Assembly: GCA_903906365.1 (NCBI GenBank)
Contig: CAIVKC010000041.1
Location: 62,001-126,000, forward strand
Reading direction: 5' to 3'
Origin: an uncultured Bacteroidota bacterium
GTDB lineage: Bacteria; Bacteroidota; Bacteroidia; Chitinophagales; Chitinophagaceae
Length of the DNA stretch: 64,000 bases
A program made the position numbers and the translations under genes. This document shows positions 56,681 through 63,884 of the stretch, in pieces; positions within the stretch are counted from its first letter, which is position 1, and each line of letters starts with the position of its first letter. Below the pieces are notes generated by a model, which searched no databases, was not told where the DNA came from, and worked only from the letters and a program-made list of their open reading frames with translations.

Positions 56681-57949
56681 ATGAACCCATTCATATTGAT
56701 AATATATAATATATTTCTGCTGATATACCGGGCAGCCATACGCTGTGCTGCCTTATTTACTGAAAAGGCCGGTCAATGGATTTCGGGCAGGAAAGACTGG
56801 CCCAGCAATATGGCTTCCCACCTCCGTCCGGGTGAAAAAAGGATATGGATTCATTGTGCCTCCCTGGGGGAATTTGAGCAGGGAAGACCATTGATAGAAT
56901 CATTGCGTGAAAAATACCCAGGCTATGGCATCCTGCTTACTTTTTTTTCCCCATCAGGCTATGAGGTCCGGAAAAATTACCCGGGTGCGGACTATGTTTA
57001 TTATCTGCCTTTGGATGGATGGAGCAATGCCCGCCGGTTCATCGCGCTGGTAAATCCCGCCCTGGTTATTTTCGTGAAATACGAATTCTGGTACTATTAT
57101 CTGCGCATATTAAGGGAACACCGGGTTCCCACACTGCTGATTTCGGCGGCCTTTCGGCGGGAACAGGCTTTTTTCAGGTGGTACGGCGCCTTTTTCAGGC
57201 AGTTGCTGGGTTGTTTCACCTGGATCTTTGTACAGGATCAAAATTCCGCCGCTTTATTGGCCCAAATCGGTCTGGATCGACGGGTTTCGCTAGCGGGGGA
57301 TACCCGCTATGACCGGGTGCTCAGCATTGCGGCCGAGCGCAAACCCCTTGCGGTGGCGGCTCAATTCCGGGATAATGCCAAAGTCCTCATCGCAGGAAGT
57401 ACCTGGCCCGGGGATGAGCAGATCCTTCAGGATGCTTTTCCCCGACTTCCCGCTGACTGGAAAATGATCATTGCTCCCCATGAAACCGACCCCGGGCATA
57501 TTGGTGCCATCCAGGCTCTTTTCAAAAGGCAGCATGTACTGTATTCTGAACTGGCCGCCGGCCGGGGGGATGCCGGAAGCCGGGTGCTGATCATTGACAA
57601 TATTGGCTTGCTCTCAGCCCTGTTTGCCTATGGAGATATTGCCTATATCGGCGGCGGATTCCAGCCCGGGGGCATTCACAACGTACTGGAGCCCGCCGTT
57701 TTCGGGCTGCCGGTCCTCTTTGGCCCTACTTACCGCAAATTCGTGGAGGCTGTGCAGCTTGTCAACCTGAAATTTGCCTTTCCCGTCCACAACTCCACAG
57801 AAACCAGTCAGGTCCTGGGCCGCCTGATTTCAGAGGACCTGCTCAGAAAGCAAATTAGGGAAGGACTGGGTGCATTCATGGGCCAGCAGGCAGGGTCTAC
57901 CCGCCGTATTATGCAATGCATCGCGAATCAGGGCTGGCTGAAGGACTGA
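56681..57949 (+). CDS. waaA: 3-deoxy-D-manno-octulosonic acid transferase
   Basis: IWIHCASLGEFEQGRPLIESLR, LLTFFSPSGYEVRKNYPGADYVYYLPLDG, YIGGGFQPGGIHNVLEPAVFGLPVLFGP. Confidence 0.94.
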   Translation: MNPFILIIYNIFLLIYRAAIRCAALFTEKAGQWISGRKDWPSNMASHLRPGEKRIWIHCASLGEFEQGRPLIESLREKYPGYGILLTFFSPSGYEVRKNYPGADYVYYLPLDGWSNARRFIALVNPALVIFVKYEFWYYYLRILREHRVPTLLISAAFRREQAFFRWYGAFFRQLLGCFTWIFVQDQNSAALLAQIGLDRRVSLAGDTRYDRVLSIAAERKPLAVAAQFRDNAKVLIAGSTWPGDEQILQDAFPRLPADWKMIIAPHETDPGHIGAIQALFKRQHVLYSELAAGRGDAGSRVLIIDNIGLLSALFAYGDIAYIGGGFQPGGIHNVLEPAVFGLPVLFGPTYRKFVEAVQLVNLKFAFPVHNSTETSQVLGRLISEDLLRKQIREGLGAFMGQQAGSTRRIMQCIANQGWLKD

Positions 57950-58106
57950 GCAGGCCGGGTTCCGCTTTTAATCCGTCCGGCCAGGGAATGGATAGCCCGC
58001 CGCGGGCCAGGTCTTTTTACCGCTGTTGCCGGTCAACCTTCGTATATGTTTATGGCCTCATTTTGAGCTATAAAGCCTATTTTTGCATCTTCAAAAATGC
58101 AATGCT

Positions 58107-59318
58107 ATGCCAGGAACAGAATTGTTTGGCGCAGAAGAGCGCAAGGAAATTATGGATGTTTTGGAAACAGGAGTCCTTTTCCGCTTCAACCATGACCAGC
58201 AGAGAAAGGGGATATGGAAAGCCCTGGAATTTGAGGCCGAAGTCAAAAAGCTTACAGGGGCCAGGTATGCCCATGCTGTTTCCAGCGGTTCCACTGCTGT
58301 TGCCACGGCGCTGGCAGCTGCCGGCATCGGGGCAGGAGACGAGGTCATTGTCCCTCCCTTTACCTATGTGGCTACCGTTGAAGCCGTTTTGTTTGTGGGC
58401 GCCAAACCGGTATTTGCAGAAATCGATGAAACGCTCTGCCTGAGTGCGGAAGGCATTGAAAAGGCCATCACTCCGTCCACCAGGGCGGTCTGCCTGGTGC
58501 ATATGTGCGGAGGCATGGCTGATATGGATGCTGTCATGGCGGTGGTCAATAAGCACCGTCTCATTTTGGTGGAGGATGCCGGCCAGGCATTTGCTGCCTC
58601 CTATAAAGGCGTCTATACCGGCCTGTTTGGTAAAACTGGCTGTTATTCCTTTGATTTTTTCAAAATTGCCACGGCCGGGGAAGGTGGGGTTGTCGTCACC
58701 AACGACGAGCAGGCTTATCACTATGCCGACTCCTACTCCGATCATGGCCATGACCATATTGGCAGCAACCGGGGTATGGAAAAGCACCCCATCCTGGGAT
58801 TCAATTACCGGATCAGCGAACTGCATGCGGCTGTCGGACTGGCCCAGACCCGGAAGGTACCCCAGATCCTGGAAGCCAACCGCCGCCATAAAAAGACCCT
58901 TACCGGGCTGCTATCCAATACCCCGGAAATTTCATTTGCCAGGATCGCAGATCCCCAGGGGGATTCGGCGACCTTCCTGAACCTTTTGCTGCCCGACACG
59001 GAAACGGCCGCCCGTACGGTGGAGGAATTCAATCGGGCAGGGGTAAGCGGGTTTAATTACTGGTACACCAACATGTATCATTTCATCAATCAGTGGGATC
59101 ACCTCAAAGAAATGCGGACTGCTTCCAAACTGGCCGTTGAGGTATTGGGCGTTCCACAGAACTACGCGCAGCTGGATATCCCCAAAACCCAGGAAGTAGT
59201 GGGAAGACTCATCTCTTTTGGTATCAGGTGTACCTGGAGCGAAGAGGAAGTGGTGGCCCTGGCCGGCCGGATTGCCGCCTGCGTAAGGCAGGCCACAGCC
59301 GCAGCACTGGTTTCCTGA
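58107..59318 (+). CDS. kdnA: DegT/DnrJ/EryC1-type aminotransferase, putative 8-amino-3,8-dideoxy-Kdo transaminase
   Basis: GTELFGAEERKEIMDVLETG, ILVEDAGQAFAASYKG, YSFDFFKIATAGEGGVV (PLP Lys); adjacent to kdnB-like gene and kdsA. Confidence 0.82.
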   Translation: MPGTELFGAEERKEIMDVLETGVLFRFNHDQQRKGIWKALEFEAEVKKLTGARYAHAVSSGSTAVATALAAAGIGAGDEVIVPPFTYVATVEAVLFVGAKPVFAEIDETLCLSAEGIEKAITPSTRAVCLVHMCGGMADMDAVMAVVNKHRLILVEDAGQAFAASYKGVYTGLFGKTGCYSFDFFKIATAGEGGVVVTNDEQAYHYADSYSDHGHDHIGSNRGMEKHPILGFNYRISELHAAVGLAQTRKVPQILEANRRHKKTLTGLLSNTPEISFARIADPQGDSATFLNLLLPDTETAARTVEEFNRAGVSGFNYWYTNMYHFINQWDHLKEMRTASKLAVEVLGVPQNYAQLDIPKTQEVVGRLISFGIRCTWSEEEVVALAGRIAACVRQATAAALVS

Positions 59319-59320
59319 AA

Positions 59321-60460
59321 ATGACTATGGCCGGGGACCCTCAACCGCTTTGTTCATTACCTATTACAATATTCAACAACTTGCACAAGAATTTCAAGAA
59401 CATAGATAAAATCGTTTTCGGCAGGGGAAGCTTTGATATGCTGGGCGGTATTCTGGATGGCAGAAGAAATGAAAACGATGGATTTTTCCTGTTTGTAGTG
59501 GACCATTATTTCAAGGATAAGCCGCTGGCCGGCCGGTTGCCGGCCCGGCCGGGTGACATTGTACGATTCATTGATGTGGATCCCGAAGAGCCTACCACGG
59601 CCCAGGTCGATGCGCTCAGAGACGAAGTCCTTTCCACCCGGGGCTTACCGGCAGGTATGGTCGGCATCGGGGGCGGAAGCATCATGGATATTGCCAAAGC
59701 CACTTCCCTGATGTTCACCAACGAAGGGTCCTCGGTGCAATACCAGGGGCTTGACCTCATCAAAAAACCGGGCATCTATCACCTGGGAGTTCCCACCATT
59801 TCCGGCACGGGAGCAGAAGTGGCCATGACGGCGGTGCTTACCGGACCTGAAAAAAAACTCGGGCTGAAATGCGAGTTCACCCCCTTCAACCAGGTGATTT
59901 TGGACCCTGAACTCATCAGTACCGTGCCGCGGGAAAGATGGTTTTATACCGGAATGGATACGTACATTCATTGTATTGAATCGGAAACCGGCTTCCTGAA
60001 CAATGCCTTCAGCCATGCTTACGGGGACCAGGCCCTTAAATTGTGCCGGGAAATTTATCTGGGCGAGCATTCCGGACAGACACCCGAAAACGATGACAAA
60101 CTGATGGTGGCCTCCATGATGGGCACCCTGAGTTTGACCTATTCAGAAGTGGGGATATGTCACGCCCTTTCCTATGGACTGGCCATGGTCTTTCATGAAA
60201 AACACTGTTACGCCAACTGCCTTGCCTTCCAGCACCTTGAGGATTACTATCCGGAGGGGGTTCGGGAGTTCCGGCAAATGCTCAAACGGAACAACATCGT
60301 GCTGCCCACCGGGCTCAGCAGGAATTGGACCGATGAACAGATCACAGCCATGGCTCATGTAGCCTATAACCTGTCCCACATGTGGAATCATGCCATCGGG
60401 CCGGACTGGAAGGAAAAGATAACCATAGAAACCATAAAAGCGCTTTTTAAACGATTATAA
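59321..60460 (+). CDS. kdnB: Fe-dependent alcohol dehydrogenase family, putative Kdo 8-oxidase
   Basis: VGIGGGSIMDIAKATSLM, GVPTISGTGAEVAMTAVLTG, GICHALSYGLAMVFHEKHCYANC; 2 nt after the kdnA stop. Confidence 0.82.
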   Translation: MTMAGDPQPLCSLPITIFNNLHKNFKNIDKIVFGRGSFDMLGGILDGRRNENDGFFLFVVDHYFKDKPLAGRLPARPGDIVRFIDVDPEEPTTAQVDALRDEVLSTRGLPAGMVGIGGGSIMDIAKATSLMFTNEGSSVQYQGLDLIKKPGIYHLGVPTISGTGAEVAMTAVLTGPEKKLGLKCEFTPFNQVILDPELISTVPRERWFYTGMDTYIHCIESETGFLNNAFSHAYGDQALKLCREIYLGEHSGQTPENDDKLMVASMMGTLSLTYSEVGICHALSYGLAMVFHEKHCYANCLAFQHLEDYYPEGVREFRQMLKRNNIVLPTGLSRNWTDEQITAMAHVAYNLSHMWNHAIGPDWKEKITIETIKALFKRL

Positions 60461-60462
60461 TT

Positions 60463-61299
60463 ATGAGTCACAAGAAAATAAAAGTAGGCAATATCGACTG
60501 CGGGGCAGACCAGCTCTTTGTAATTTCAGGTCCCTGTGTCATCGAAGACGAGCTGGTCATGATGCAGACGGCAGAAAAGCTGAAGGAGGTCTCAGAGAGG
60601 CTGTCCATCCCCATCATCTATAAGTCTTCGTTTTCCAAAGATAACCGCAGCAGCCTGAAATATTACAATGGTCCCGGACTCGATAAGGGAGTCAGGATGC
60701 TGGCCAAGATCAAAGAGCAGTTCGGTTTTCCCGTACTCACCGATATCCACTATCCCGACCAGGCCGCAGCCGCCGGTGAGGTCTGCGATGTGCTCCAGAT
60801 ACCCGCTTACCTGTGCATGCAGACAGGGCTGATGGTGGCCGCCGCCAAGACAGGGCGGGTCATCAACATCAAACATGGTCAGTTCCTGGCCCCAGACAAC
60901 ATGAAGCATCCGGTGAATAAATGTGTGGAAGCAGGCAATGACCAGATCATCCTGACAGAAAGGGGCTATACCATGGGGTACAATGACCTGGTGGTGGATC
61001 CCAGAAGTTTTTTTCACATGGGACGCCTGGGTTACCCGGTAGTATTTGACATCACCCACTCAATCCGCAAATACGGTATTCCCAGTGCGGATGCCAAGGG
61101 AGGTGCCCGCGAGTTCCTGCCGGTCCTAAGCAGGGCGGGGGTCGCCTCCGGGGTGGATGGGGTATTTATCGAAACCCATCCTGAACCTGAAAAAGCACTC
61201 TGTGATGCCGCCAGCCAGTTATGCGTCTATGACCTGGAAGAGTTTTTAAAACCCCTCATAGAAATCCATCACATTGAGGTGAAATACCGGGGCCACTGA
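60463..61299 (+). CDS. kdsA: 3-deoxy-8-phosphooctulonate synthase
   Basis: FVISGPCVIEDELVMMQTAEKLKEVSERLSIPIIYKSSFSKDNRSS, LTDIHYPDQA, IFIETHPEPEKALCDAASQL. Confidence 0.96.
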   Translation: MSHKKIKVGNIDCGADQLFVISGPCVIEDELVMMQTAEKLKEVSERLSIPIIYKSSFSKDNRSSLKYYNGPGLDKGVRMLAKIKEQFGFPVLTDIHYPDQAAAAGEVCDVLQIPAYLCMQTGLMVAAAKTGRVINIKHGQFLAPDNMKHPVNKCVEAGNDQIILTERGYTMGYNDLVVDPRSFFHMGRLGYPVVFDITHSIRKYGIPSADAKGGAREFLPVLSRAGVASGVDGVFIETHPEPEKALCDAASQLCVYDLEEFLKPLIEIHHIEVKYRGH

Positions 61300-61356: not shown

Positions 61357-62370
61357 GTGGAATTATATCTTGATTCGGCCAACATGAAGGAAATCGAAGA
61401 AGGCTTTAAACTGGGCTTTCTGGACGGTCTGACTACCACACCTACCTTTATGCAGCGGGAAGGGGTAACCGATATTGACGGTACCATCCTGAAACTCTCC
61501 AAAATAGTTCCGGTGCTTCAGATTGAAGCCCTGGGTAATACAGCAGAGGAAGTAGTAAAGGAAGCCCACCGGCAGCTGGATCTCGGTCTGGATCCGAAGA
61601 AGACGGTTTTCAAAGTTCCCGTTTCCCTGGAAGCGGTTCGCGCCTGTTACCTTCTTCGTAAGGAAGGACTGCTGGTAAATGTCCATCTGGTGTATACCCT
61701 GCAGCAGGCCTACATGGCCATGCATGCCGGGGCAACCTATGTTTGCCCGCTGGTTGGCCGCCTGCAGGACCAGGGCCATGATGCACTGGCCCTGGTAGAA
61801 CAGTGTGTGGAAGCTGTTGATCATTATGGCTACAACACCAAGGTGATGTTCAGTTCCGTGCGCCACAATGAACATGTGCGTAATGCCATCAATATGGGGG
61901 TCCATACCATCACCCTTCCGCTGAAGGTCCTCAAATCCCTGACCGATAATAATTTCACGACCGTAGGCACCGAGCAGTTCCTCCGGGATACCAGGCTGAT
62001 GACGGTAAGAGTAAAGGAGGCTGTAAACGGAATCAACCCGCTGGTATCGGTGGATGCCATCCTGCGCGATGCCATCGTGAAAATGACTGAATACGGTTTT
62101 GGCTCGGTCAGCGTGGTGCATGGGGACGGTACCGTCAAAGGGGTATTTACCGACGGGGATCTACGCCGCCTCCTGCAAAAGGAAGGGGAGCATATCCTGG
62201 GAAAGAAAATGGGAGACCTTGAATATAAAACCCCGGTAAGCATAGAGGCCGGTACCCTGCTCAATGATGCCGCCGGACTGTTTAAGAAAACCAATGTGGA
62301 TACCATACTGGTTACCGAGAACGGAAAGCCCATCGGGATGCTGGACATACAGGATCTTAAGAACGATTAA
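61357..62370 (+). CDS. FSA/TalC-like transaldolase domain fused to a KdsD-type tandem CBS domain
   Basis: GTG start; MELYLDSANMKEIEEGF...DGLTTTPTFM, VFKVPVSLEA Schiff-base Lys motif, HAGATYVCPLVGRLQDQGHDA, MGVHTITLPLKVLKSL; then SVVHGDGTVKGVFTDGDLRRLLQ ... KPIGMLDIQDL CBS pair. Confidence 0.9.
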   Translation: MELYLDSANMKEIEEGFKLGFLDGLTTTPTFMQREGVTDIDGTILKLSKIVPVLQIEALGNTAEEVVKEAHRQLDLGLDPKKTVFKVPVSLEAVRACYLLRKEGLLVNVHLVYTLQQAYMAMHAGATYVCPLVGRLQDQGHDALALVEQCVEAVDHYGYNTKVMFSSVRHNEHVRNAINMGVHTITLPLKVLKSLTDNNFTTVGTEQFLRDTRLMTVRVKEAVNGINPLVSVDAILRDAIVKMTEYGFGSVSVVHGDGTVKGVFTDGDLRRLLQKEGEHILGKKMGDLEYKTPVSIEAGTLLNDAAGLFKKTNVDTILVTENGKPIGMLDIQDLKND

Positions 62371-62424: not shown

Positions 62425-63135
62425 ATGTCAACCGAATCCAGGAAGATCGCCGATTTATTTAAGGGGAAGTTTTTGGCAAGCCCTTCGCAGATTGCCCAGA
62501 AACTCCCGGCCATCAAGGCCTTTGTATTTGACTGGGACGGTGTTTTCAACGACGGGCAAAAGGATCAGGACGGTTCGAGTTCTTTCAGTGAAATAGATGC
62601 CATGGGAACCAACCTGCTCAGGTTCAACCATTACCTGCGAACCGGAATTCCGCCCCGGGTGGCTGTTTTTTCCGGGGAACAGAACAAGGCTGCTTTCAGG
62701 CTGGCAGGCAGGGAGCATTTTGATGCCGTTTATTATAAGATGTCCGATAAAATCAGGGCCCTGCATCATTTCTGCCGCTGGCATGAATTGGAGCCATCGG
62801 AAGTGGCCTTCTTTTTTGACGATGTCCTTGATTTTTCCCTGGCTGCCCTATGCGGTTTGCGCATCATGGTATCCCGGGATTGTAATCCTTTGCTGAGAGA
62901 TTTTGCAGAAAACAGGCGGCTGGCTGATTATATCACTTTTGCCGACGGGGGCAATCACGCTGTCCGCGAATCCGTGGAACTGCTCACGGGGCTAAGCGGA
63001 AAATATAGTGAAACCATCGAACACCGCATGCACTATGCCCCGCTTTACCAGCAGTACCTGGCACTCCGTAACCGCCCCAAGCCCTTGTTTTATACCCTCA
63101 TTGATTCTGAAATAACCGAACAAACACCCATATGA
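62425..63135 (+). CDS. HAD-superfamily phosphatase, divergent KdsC-like (Kdo-8-P phosphatase candidate)
   Basis: IKAFVFDWDGVFNDGQ, RVAVFSGEQNKAAFRL, VAFFFDDVLDFSLAALCGLRIMVSRDCNPLL, GGNHAVRESVELL follow the KdsC motif order. Confidence 0.75.
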   Translation: MSTESRKIADLFKGKFLASPSQIAQKLPAIKAFVFDWDGVFNDGQKDQDGSSSFSEIDAMGTNLLRFNHYLRTGIPPRVAVFSGEQNKAAFRLAGREHFDAVYYKMSDKIRALHHFCRWHELEPSEVAFFFDDVLDFSLAALCGLRIMVSRDCNPLLRDFAENRRLADYITFADGGNHAVRESVELLTGLSGKYSETIEHRMHYAPLYQQYLALRNRPKPLFYTLIDSEITEQTPI

Positions 63136-63884
63136 TAGCAGGCATTATTCCGGCGCGTTATGCATCCTCCCGTTTTCCGGGTAAGTCATTGCTCGATATA
63201 GGAGGCAAGACCATGATCCAGCGGGTATACGAGCAGGCGAAAAAAAGCAAATCCCTGCAGAAACTGGTGGTGGCCACCGATGACCAGCGGATTTTGGACC
63301 ATGTTCTGTCCTTTGGCGGGGAAGCCGTCATGACCTCTCCGGAACACCCCAGCGGCACCGACCGGTGCTGGGATGCCTTCCGCCAGCTAAAGGAGGCCTA
63401 CCAGTATGTCATCAATATTCAGGGAGATGAGCCCTTTATTGACCCTTCCCAGATTGATACGCTTTCCGCGTTGCTGCAGGACGGCACCACTGAACTGGCC
63501 ACCCTGATGATTCCGGTTTCCAAGGCAGAGGACCTCTTTGACACAGGGGAGGTTAAAATTGTGCTCAATGACAAGATGGAGGCGCTCTATTTCAGCCGAA
63601 TGGCCATTCCATACCTCAAAGGGGTGGAGCAGGCCTTCTGGCATGAACACCATGCCTATTACCGGCATGTCGGCATGTACGCTTACCGCTCGGACGTACT
63701 CAAGAAGATTACCAAGCTTCCGGTATCCTCACTGGAGCGGGCCGAATCCCTGGAACAGCTTCGATGGCTGGAGAACGGATACCGCATCAAATGCGGGGTT
63801 ACCCATTTTGAGAGCCATTGCATCGACACTCCCGAAGATGTTGAGAAGGTAATGAAATGGATGGGAAAGACCCATTTTGAATAA
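63132..63884 (+). CDS. kdsB: CMP-Kdo synthetase (3-deoxy-manno-octulosonate cytidylyltransferase)
   Basis: MIAGIIPARYASSRFPGKSLLDIGGKTMIQRVYEQA, TSPEHPSGTDRCWDAF, VINIQGDEPFID; ATGA overlap with previous gene. Confidence 0.95.
   Translation: MIAGIIPARYASSRFPGKSLLDIGGKTMIQRVYEQAKKSKSLQKLVVATDDQRILDHVLSFGGEAVMTSPEHPSGTDRCWDAFRQLKEAYQYVINIQGDEPFIDPSQIDTLSALLQDGTTELATLMIPVSKAEDLFDTGEVKIVLNDKMEALYFSRMAIPYLKGVEQAFWHEHHAYYRHVGMYAYRSDVLKKITKLPVSSLERAESLEQLRWLENGYRIKCGVTHFESHCIDTPEDVEKVMKWMGKTHFE

Follow-up and report, generated by a model that had tools for sequence, protein, structure and literature searches.

The window analysed here is a 64,000-nucleotide stretch from an uncultured Bacteroidota bacterium, and it contains a Kdo cluster with the gene order waaA-kdnA-kdnB-kdsA-fusion-kdsC-kdsB (Table 1). 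The gene of interest, which begins at a GTG start codon, joins a transaldolase/fructose-6-phosphate aldolase (TAL/FSA) barrel to a pair of CBS domains of the KdsD type. Its placement directly after kdsA and before kdsC/kdsB-like genes, as the first-pass annotation described it, agrees with the profile matches of the neighbours. The upstream kdsA is the only one in the genome and has intact catalytic motifs, and its product is likely to be the consumer of whatever the fusion makes. The proteins best matching kdnA and kdnB in the PDB, 5k8b and 5k8c, are the Shewanella Kdo8N enzymes; the window cluster contains clear homologues of both, although the fusion itself is not tied to these genes, and the real start of kdnB is probably near 59384. 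The HAD protein downstream of the fusion (236 aa) has no Pfam match but keeps its position next to the fusion in relatives, and probably represents a new KdsC subfamily.

Table 1 Features of the Kdo cluster in the window and of related loci
Feature	Position	Strand	Basis
waaA/kdtA, Kdo transferase	56681..57949	+	PF04413 160 bits; NCBIfam waaA models, below cut-off
kdnA, Kdo8N transaminase	58083..59318	+	best PDB match 5k8b, 436 bits
kdnB, Kdo 8-oxidase (iron ADH)	59228..60460	+	best PDB match 5k8c, 412 bits over query 53-410
kdsA, 3-deoxy-8-phosphooctulonate synthase	60463..61299	+	TIGR01362 (KDO8P_synth) 333 bits, above cut-off
Fusion gene, TAL/FSA barrel and KdsD-type CBS pair, 337 aa	61357..62370	+	ORF, Pfam, NCBIfam, PDB, Foldseek
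Barrel domain, residues 1-213	61357..61995	+	PF00923 at 3-201; Foldseek; phage orthologues span 1-213
Schiff-base Lys86 codon	61612-61614	+	within barrel domain
KdsD-type CBS pair, residues 225-334	62029..62358	+	phmmer to 4o9k covers 225-334; Foldseek 3k2v/4o9k
Divergent KdsC-like HAD phosphatase	62425..63135	+	NF007019 52.6 bits, far under cut-off of 208
kdsB, CMP-Kdo(8N) synthetase	63132..63884	+	TIGR00466 210 bits, above cut-off
Phage barrel and overlapping kdsA	L158 5001-6385; L159 5001-6373
Phage kdsB, kdsA and barrel on one contig	L220 3980-18187
PIN-like small genes in relatives	L018 5120-5533; L021 7563-7976; L037 6734-7117; L055 6173-6556
Four-helix-like (S23-type) ORF in relatives, examples	L011 7504-7866; L019 7535-7900

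A genome scan found 174 relatives of the fusion, and among the best 80 of these, which were kept and are 76-86% identical over their full length, the order kdsA-fusion-kdsC(-kdsB) is conserved in most loci of sufficient length, and kdnA-kdnB usually lie upstream. Many relatives have single PIN-like small genes inside the kdn/kds operon, close to kdnB or in the gap that separates kdsA from the fusion, and in four relatives this gap contains a small four-helix-like (S23-type) ORF; such insertions, among them a membrane type, occur in some relatives and are not constant. One contig labelled Azovibrio restrictus (L011, JANLJF010000062.1) encodes a fusion 84% identical to that of the window amid neighbours matching Chitinophagales-type loci, and is probably a mislabelled or contaminated bin.

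In the Pfam search residues 3-201 of the fusion matched TAL_FSA (PF00923) at 116 bits against a gathering cut-off of 27 and two CBS domains were found at 57 bits, in line with the FSA-like barrel and CBS pair originally read from the ORF. Since both halves are present in 42 of 42 aligned homologues, the fusion is no accident of assembly. In NCBIfam the CBS half scored 52.9 bits for KdsD and 52.8 for KpsF, with the next CBS family at 27.9, and searched alone against PDB sequences it retrieved the CBS pairs of the arabinose-5-phosphate (A5P) isomerases 4o9k (68 bits), 3k2v and 3fna, the next match reaching 39. Predicted structures gave the same picture when compared by Foldseek, a check of the two halves that the first-pass annotation had proposed together with the profile searches: the model of the full protein (mean pLDDT 88, pTM 0.66) was closest over its barrel to the short transaldolases 1vpx, 3r8r and 3s1u, with 32-35% identity to the TalC-type set, and the two top matches of the CBS-half model (mean pLDDT 86) were 3k2v and 4o9k. 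The tail is KdsD-like and not a generic CBS pair, as had been suspected. No SIS isomerase domain was found in the fusion, TIGR00393 aligning over its CBS part only (153-267 of 268), and the protein falls below the NCBIfam cut-offs both for fructose-6-phosphate aldolase (TIGR00875, 160.8 against 245.95 bits) and for transaldolase. Compared with KdsD/KpsF/GutQ the fusion has a C-terminal CBS pair closest to theirs in sequence and fold and the same place in the pathway before KdsA, whereas its catalytic half is a transaldolase barrel and its chemistry must differ.

The fusions of the carriers and the phage proteins described below group together to the exclusion of the ordinary transaldolases of Bacteroidota (support 100/100), and their clade is separate from the source genome's own transaldolase. 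Lys86 is invariant in 85 homologues and three phage proteins. The fusion shares with the TalC-type transaldolases (T. maritima 1vpx, B. subtilis 3r8r, T. acidophilum TAL 3s0c) the fold and, in comparison with the T. acidophilum enzyme, residues D6, E60 (here E57), K86, N108, R135, S167 and R169. The Schiff-base lysine and early aspartate are thus retained as claimed, but the claimed retention of a glutamine near LQIEA did not hold: FSA Gln59 aligns with Glu57, the residue type of transaldolases, and Gln55 lies two positions earlier. Nine pocket positions are fixed in carriers as T28, Q55, H110, Y113, C130, L132, Q137, Q139 and S166; the corresponding residues in 26 ordinary transaldolases are N, S, T, F, S, F, D, I/V (with S in one) and A respectively. 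At transaldolase pocket positions Asn28, Thr110, Ser130 and Phe132 (T. acidophilum numbers) all 26 ordinary enzymes have N, T, S, F and all carriers have T, H, C, L. The two substitutions noticed at first, of Asn by Thr (T28) and of the active-site aromatic by Leu (L132), are confirmed and are accompanied by T110H, S130C and D137Q among others, and with A166S, the CBS tail and the operon they set the fusion apart from the TalC-type enzymes. From E. coli FsaA (1l6w), with which it has the fold and the Schiff-base lysine in common, it differs in sequence (26-28% identity, score under the family cut-off); the catalytic residues Tyr131 and Gln59 of FSA correspond to Leu132 and Glu57 by alignment to transaldolases. 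By the roles that these positions have in transaldolases, the residues that are kept are the imine-forming and phosphate-binding set, and those that are changed surround the donor. Such a pocket fits an imine-forming enzyme that takes a phosphorylated acceptor but uses another donor, and an inactive barrel was rejected given the invariance of the catalytic Lys, Glu and Asp.

The first-pass annotation saw the fusion as a candidate replacement for KdsD in supplying A5P and regarded a canonical KdsD elsewhere in the genome as evidence against this. Our genome-wide search did find one, a SIS+CBS protein of 321 aa, in a recQ-kdsD-manC-like locus ordered as in relatives; this recQ-kdsD context is the ancestral KdsD locus, and its presence rules out a simple replacement in the source genome. 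In the other three genomes sampled from its genus KdsD is present and the fusion absent, and a recent gain of the fusion operon in the source genome, with KdsD not yet lost, is therefore suggested.

Across relatives the replacement claim fared better. KdsD and the fusion are mutually exclusive in most genomes: among 200 genomes of the source organism's own family KdsD is absent from 16 of 18 carriers against 12 of 182 non-carriers (p 2e-14, Fisher, relatedness ignored), and in the high-quality genomes from 15 of 17 against 3 of 155 (p 8e-17, Fisher, relatedness ignored). A sample of the Bacteroidota phylum, overlapping in part with the family sample, comprised 297 genomes, 220 of them with kdsA; the KdsD profile search is sensitive, scoring above cut-off in 211 of the 297. 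Here KdsD was absent from 4 of 5 carriers that have kdsA against 3 of 215 non-carriers (p 1.8e-6, relatedness ignored). Among 36 carrier records KdsD was found in only three (G000, G311 and G323) and, as G091 and G314 are the same assembly, it is absent from 32 of 35 distinct carrier genomes, including the complete chromosome CP075895 (L017, G302). A hidden SIS-only A5P isomerase in carriers was rejected, since, apart from a few SIS fragments of 24 bits or less, the TIGR00393 search yielded matches to CBS domains alone, most of them in the fusion. The two enzymes occur together in the source genome, in G408/G323 and in G311, and each of the two double-positive genomes of the family sample, G000 and G408, has congeners that carry KdsD alone. 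Four genera (g5, g152, g163 and g227) each include a genome with the fusion and no KdsD and a congener with KdsD and no fusion, so the swap either occurred or was inherited in several places. As a counterpoint, G023, G200 and G273 have kdsA and neither enzyme was found in them; a further source of A5P may exist there, or assembly gaps are possible.

Two comparisons bear on what the fusion supplies. The complete 7.0 Mb genome G250, which belongs to the family of carrier G190, keeps the gene order kdnA-kdnB-kdsA-kdsC-kdsB but lacks the fusion; it has a recQ-kdsD locus, and its KdsA is 75% identical to that of the window. Its operon works on A5P made by KdsD, and A5P is accordingly the likeliest product of the fusion elsewhere. 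In addition, kdnB is absent from the carriers G293, G302 and G317, at least two of the carriers without it being near-complete genomes, and is present without the fusion in 18 genomes of the phylum sample. We therefore rejected a role specific to Kdo8N; the fusion serves Kdo synthesis proper.

On three IMG/VR contigs the barrel occurs as a 213-aa protein of its own that lacks CBS domains; it is 59-61% identical to the fusion barrel and has the same altered pocket. In two of them (L158 and L159) the barrel gene and a KDO8P synthase gene overlap by one base, with which the former ends and the start codon of the latter begins, and in the third (L220/L221) kdsA lies about 7 kb upstream of the barrel, with a kdsB homologue on the same contig and a baseplate wedge gene nearby. 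The phage KdsA proteins keep their catalytic motifs but are only about 34-44% identical to the KdsA of the window, and simple shared ancestry of one operon is consequently an unlikely explanation of the pairing. That a barrel with no regulatory tail adjoins kdsA suggests that it is catalytic and provides KdsA with its substrate, and a purely regulatory fusion is unlikely as the phage versions lack the tail. Among the matches listed for plasmids and INPHARED phages there were only ordinary FSA/transaldolases, at about 39% identity or less.

Judged from sequence comparison, the fusion is probably an A5P-forming enzyme that acts independently of KdsD and replaces it, the transaldolase-type barrel forming A5P for the neighbouring KdsA through a catalytic domain unrelated to that of KdsD. 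A two-carbon unit, glycolaldehyde, would be bound to Lys86 as an imine, and the resulting enamine would add to glyceraldehyde-3-phosphate (G3P) held by Arg135 and Arg169 to give D-arabinose-5-phosphate. Aldol chemistry with glycolaldehyde or DHA, the donors named in the first-pass annotation, is possible. FSA itself adds glycolaldehyde to G3P, and for both FSA and TalB F178Y the product was taken to be A5P (PMC8208507), so the fold is capable of an A5P-type condensation. The two-carbon unit could be free glycolaldehyde or could come from cleavage on the enzyme of an abundant aldose phosphate such as ribose-5-phosphate, which would make the fusion in effect a 2-epimerase. Free glycolaldehyde is disfavoured because no gene for its formation travels with the barrel in the bacterial operons or phage contigs examined; for a unit drawn from ribose-5-phosphate, or for direct epimerisation or isomerisation of a pentose phosphate, central metabolites would suffice. 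Granted that A5P is formed, we give aldol chemistry of this C2-plus-G3P type an even chance. By analogy with the proposal for KdsD, the CBS pair is most likely a sensor of the end product, CMP-Kdo or CMP-Kdo8N. Carriers would have gained the fusion with a Kdo/Kdo8N operon and most would then have lost KdsD, the source genome retaining both. An A5P-forming stand-in for KdsD, with operon gain followed in most carriers by KdsD loss, is the overall explanation we consider best and probable; the domain make-up, the operon, the pattern of KdsD replacement, the retained lysine, the altered pocket and the pairing with phage kdsA are shown by the comparisons, and A5P as product, the substrates and the CBS ligand are the parts that we infer.

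The strongest competitor, plausible but clearly less probable, is that the barrel is an isomerase or epimerase turning Ru5P or R5P into A5P with no net aldol chemistry, His110, Cys130 and the Gln residues acting as acid/base. It would account for the replacement throughout of the transaldolase residues that bind and protonate DHA and, with no glycolaldehyde-forming enzyme at hand, would draw on a central metabolite as the simplest substrate; however, the invariance of Lys86, Glu57 and Asp6 suggests that imine chemistry is still in use, and on mechanistic grounds a C2-linked imine on Ru5P gives no direct path to an aldose.

That the barrel does not form A5P at all, the fusion being a regulator or the maker of another sugar phosphate for a Kdo-like product with A5P coming from an unrecognised enzyme, appears unlikely. 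The CBS tail does suggest regulation, and in a small number of genomes with kdsA both KdsD and the fusion are missing, but the tail-less phage versions keep both the pocket and the kdsA partner, G250 runs the same operon on KdsD and the KdsA catalytic motifs are kept. We know of no supply of octulose-8-phosphate in bacteria, and this together with the change of all the DHA-site residues N28, T110, S130 and F132 renders quite improbable a transaldolase-like conversion of octulose-8-phosphate into DHA or F6P and A5P, of the kind put forward for the L-type pentose phosphate pathway. The transaldolase fold and the Lys, Glu and phosphate Arg residues are nonetheless retained, and A5P and octulose phosphates are on record for that proposed pathway (review PMC4470864). 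An ordinary transaldolase or FSA placed in the cluster by chance would share the TAL_FSA fold but is highly improbable in view of the sub-threshold NCBIfam scores, the clade distinct from the genome's own transaldolase, the nine fixed pocket changes and the KdsD replacement pattern.

KdsD normally starts the synthesis of Kdo for the bacterial outer membrane, and it is from isomerases of its family that the A5P used for Kdo is known to come; these isomerases have also been proposed as an antibacterial target. We found no description of a protein like the fusion in the open literature searched, coverage of which was incomplete, and it is probable that a second enzyme, as yet undescribed, exists for what textbooks give as the first step of lipopolysaccharide synthesis. 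The full proposal, to which we attach about equal odds either way, is of a second, non-homologous route to A5P in which a Schiff-base enzyme of the aldolase fold uses a C2 unit and G3P, or epimerises ribose-5-phosphate, and is subject to feedback by CMP-Kdo through the tail captured from KdsD; this enzyme would have taken the place of KdsD in several lineages of Bacteroidota and would stand alone beside kdsA in phages. From the phage versions it seems that viruses bring Kdo synthesis with them. If the proposal is true, this would be a native A5P-forming enzyme of the aldolase fold, for a reaction so far reported for FSA/transaldolase variants in synthetic pathways, and a clear example of an enzyme displacing a non-orthologous one while capturing its regulatory domain; for a whole group of Bacteroidota, a second A5P enzyme of unrelated fold would close a gap in the pathway.
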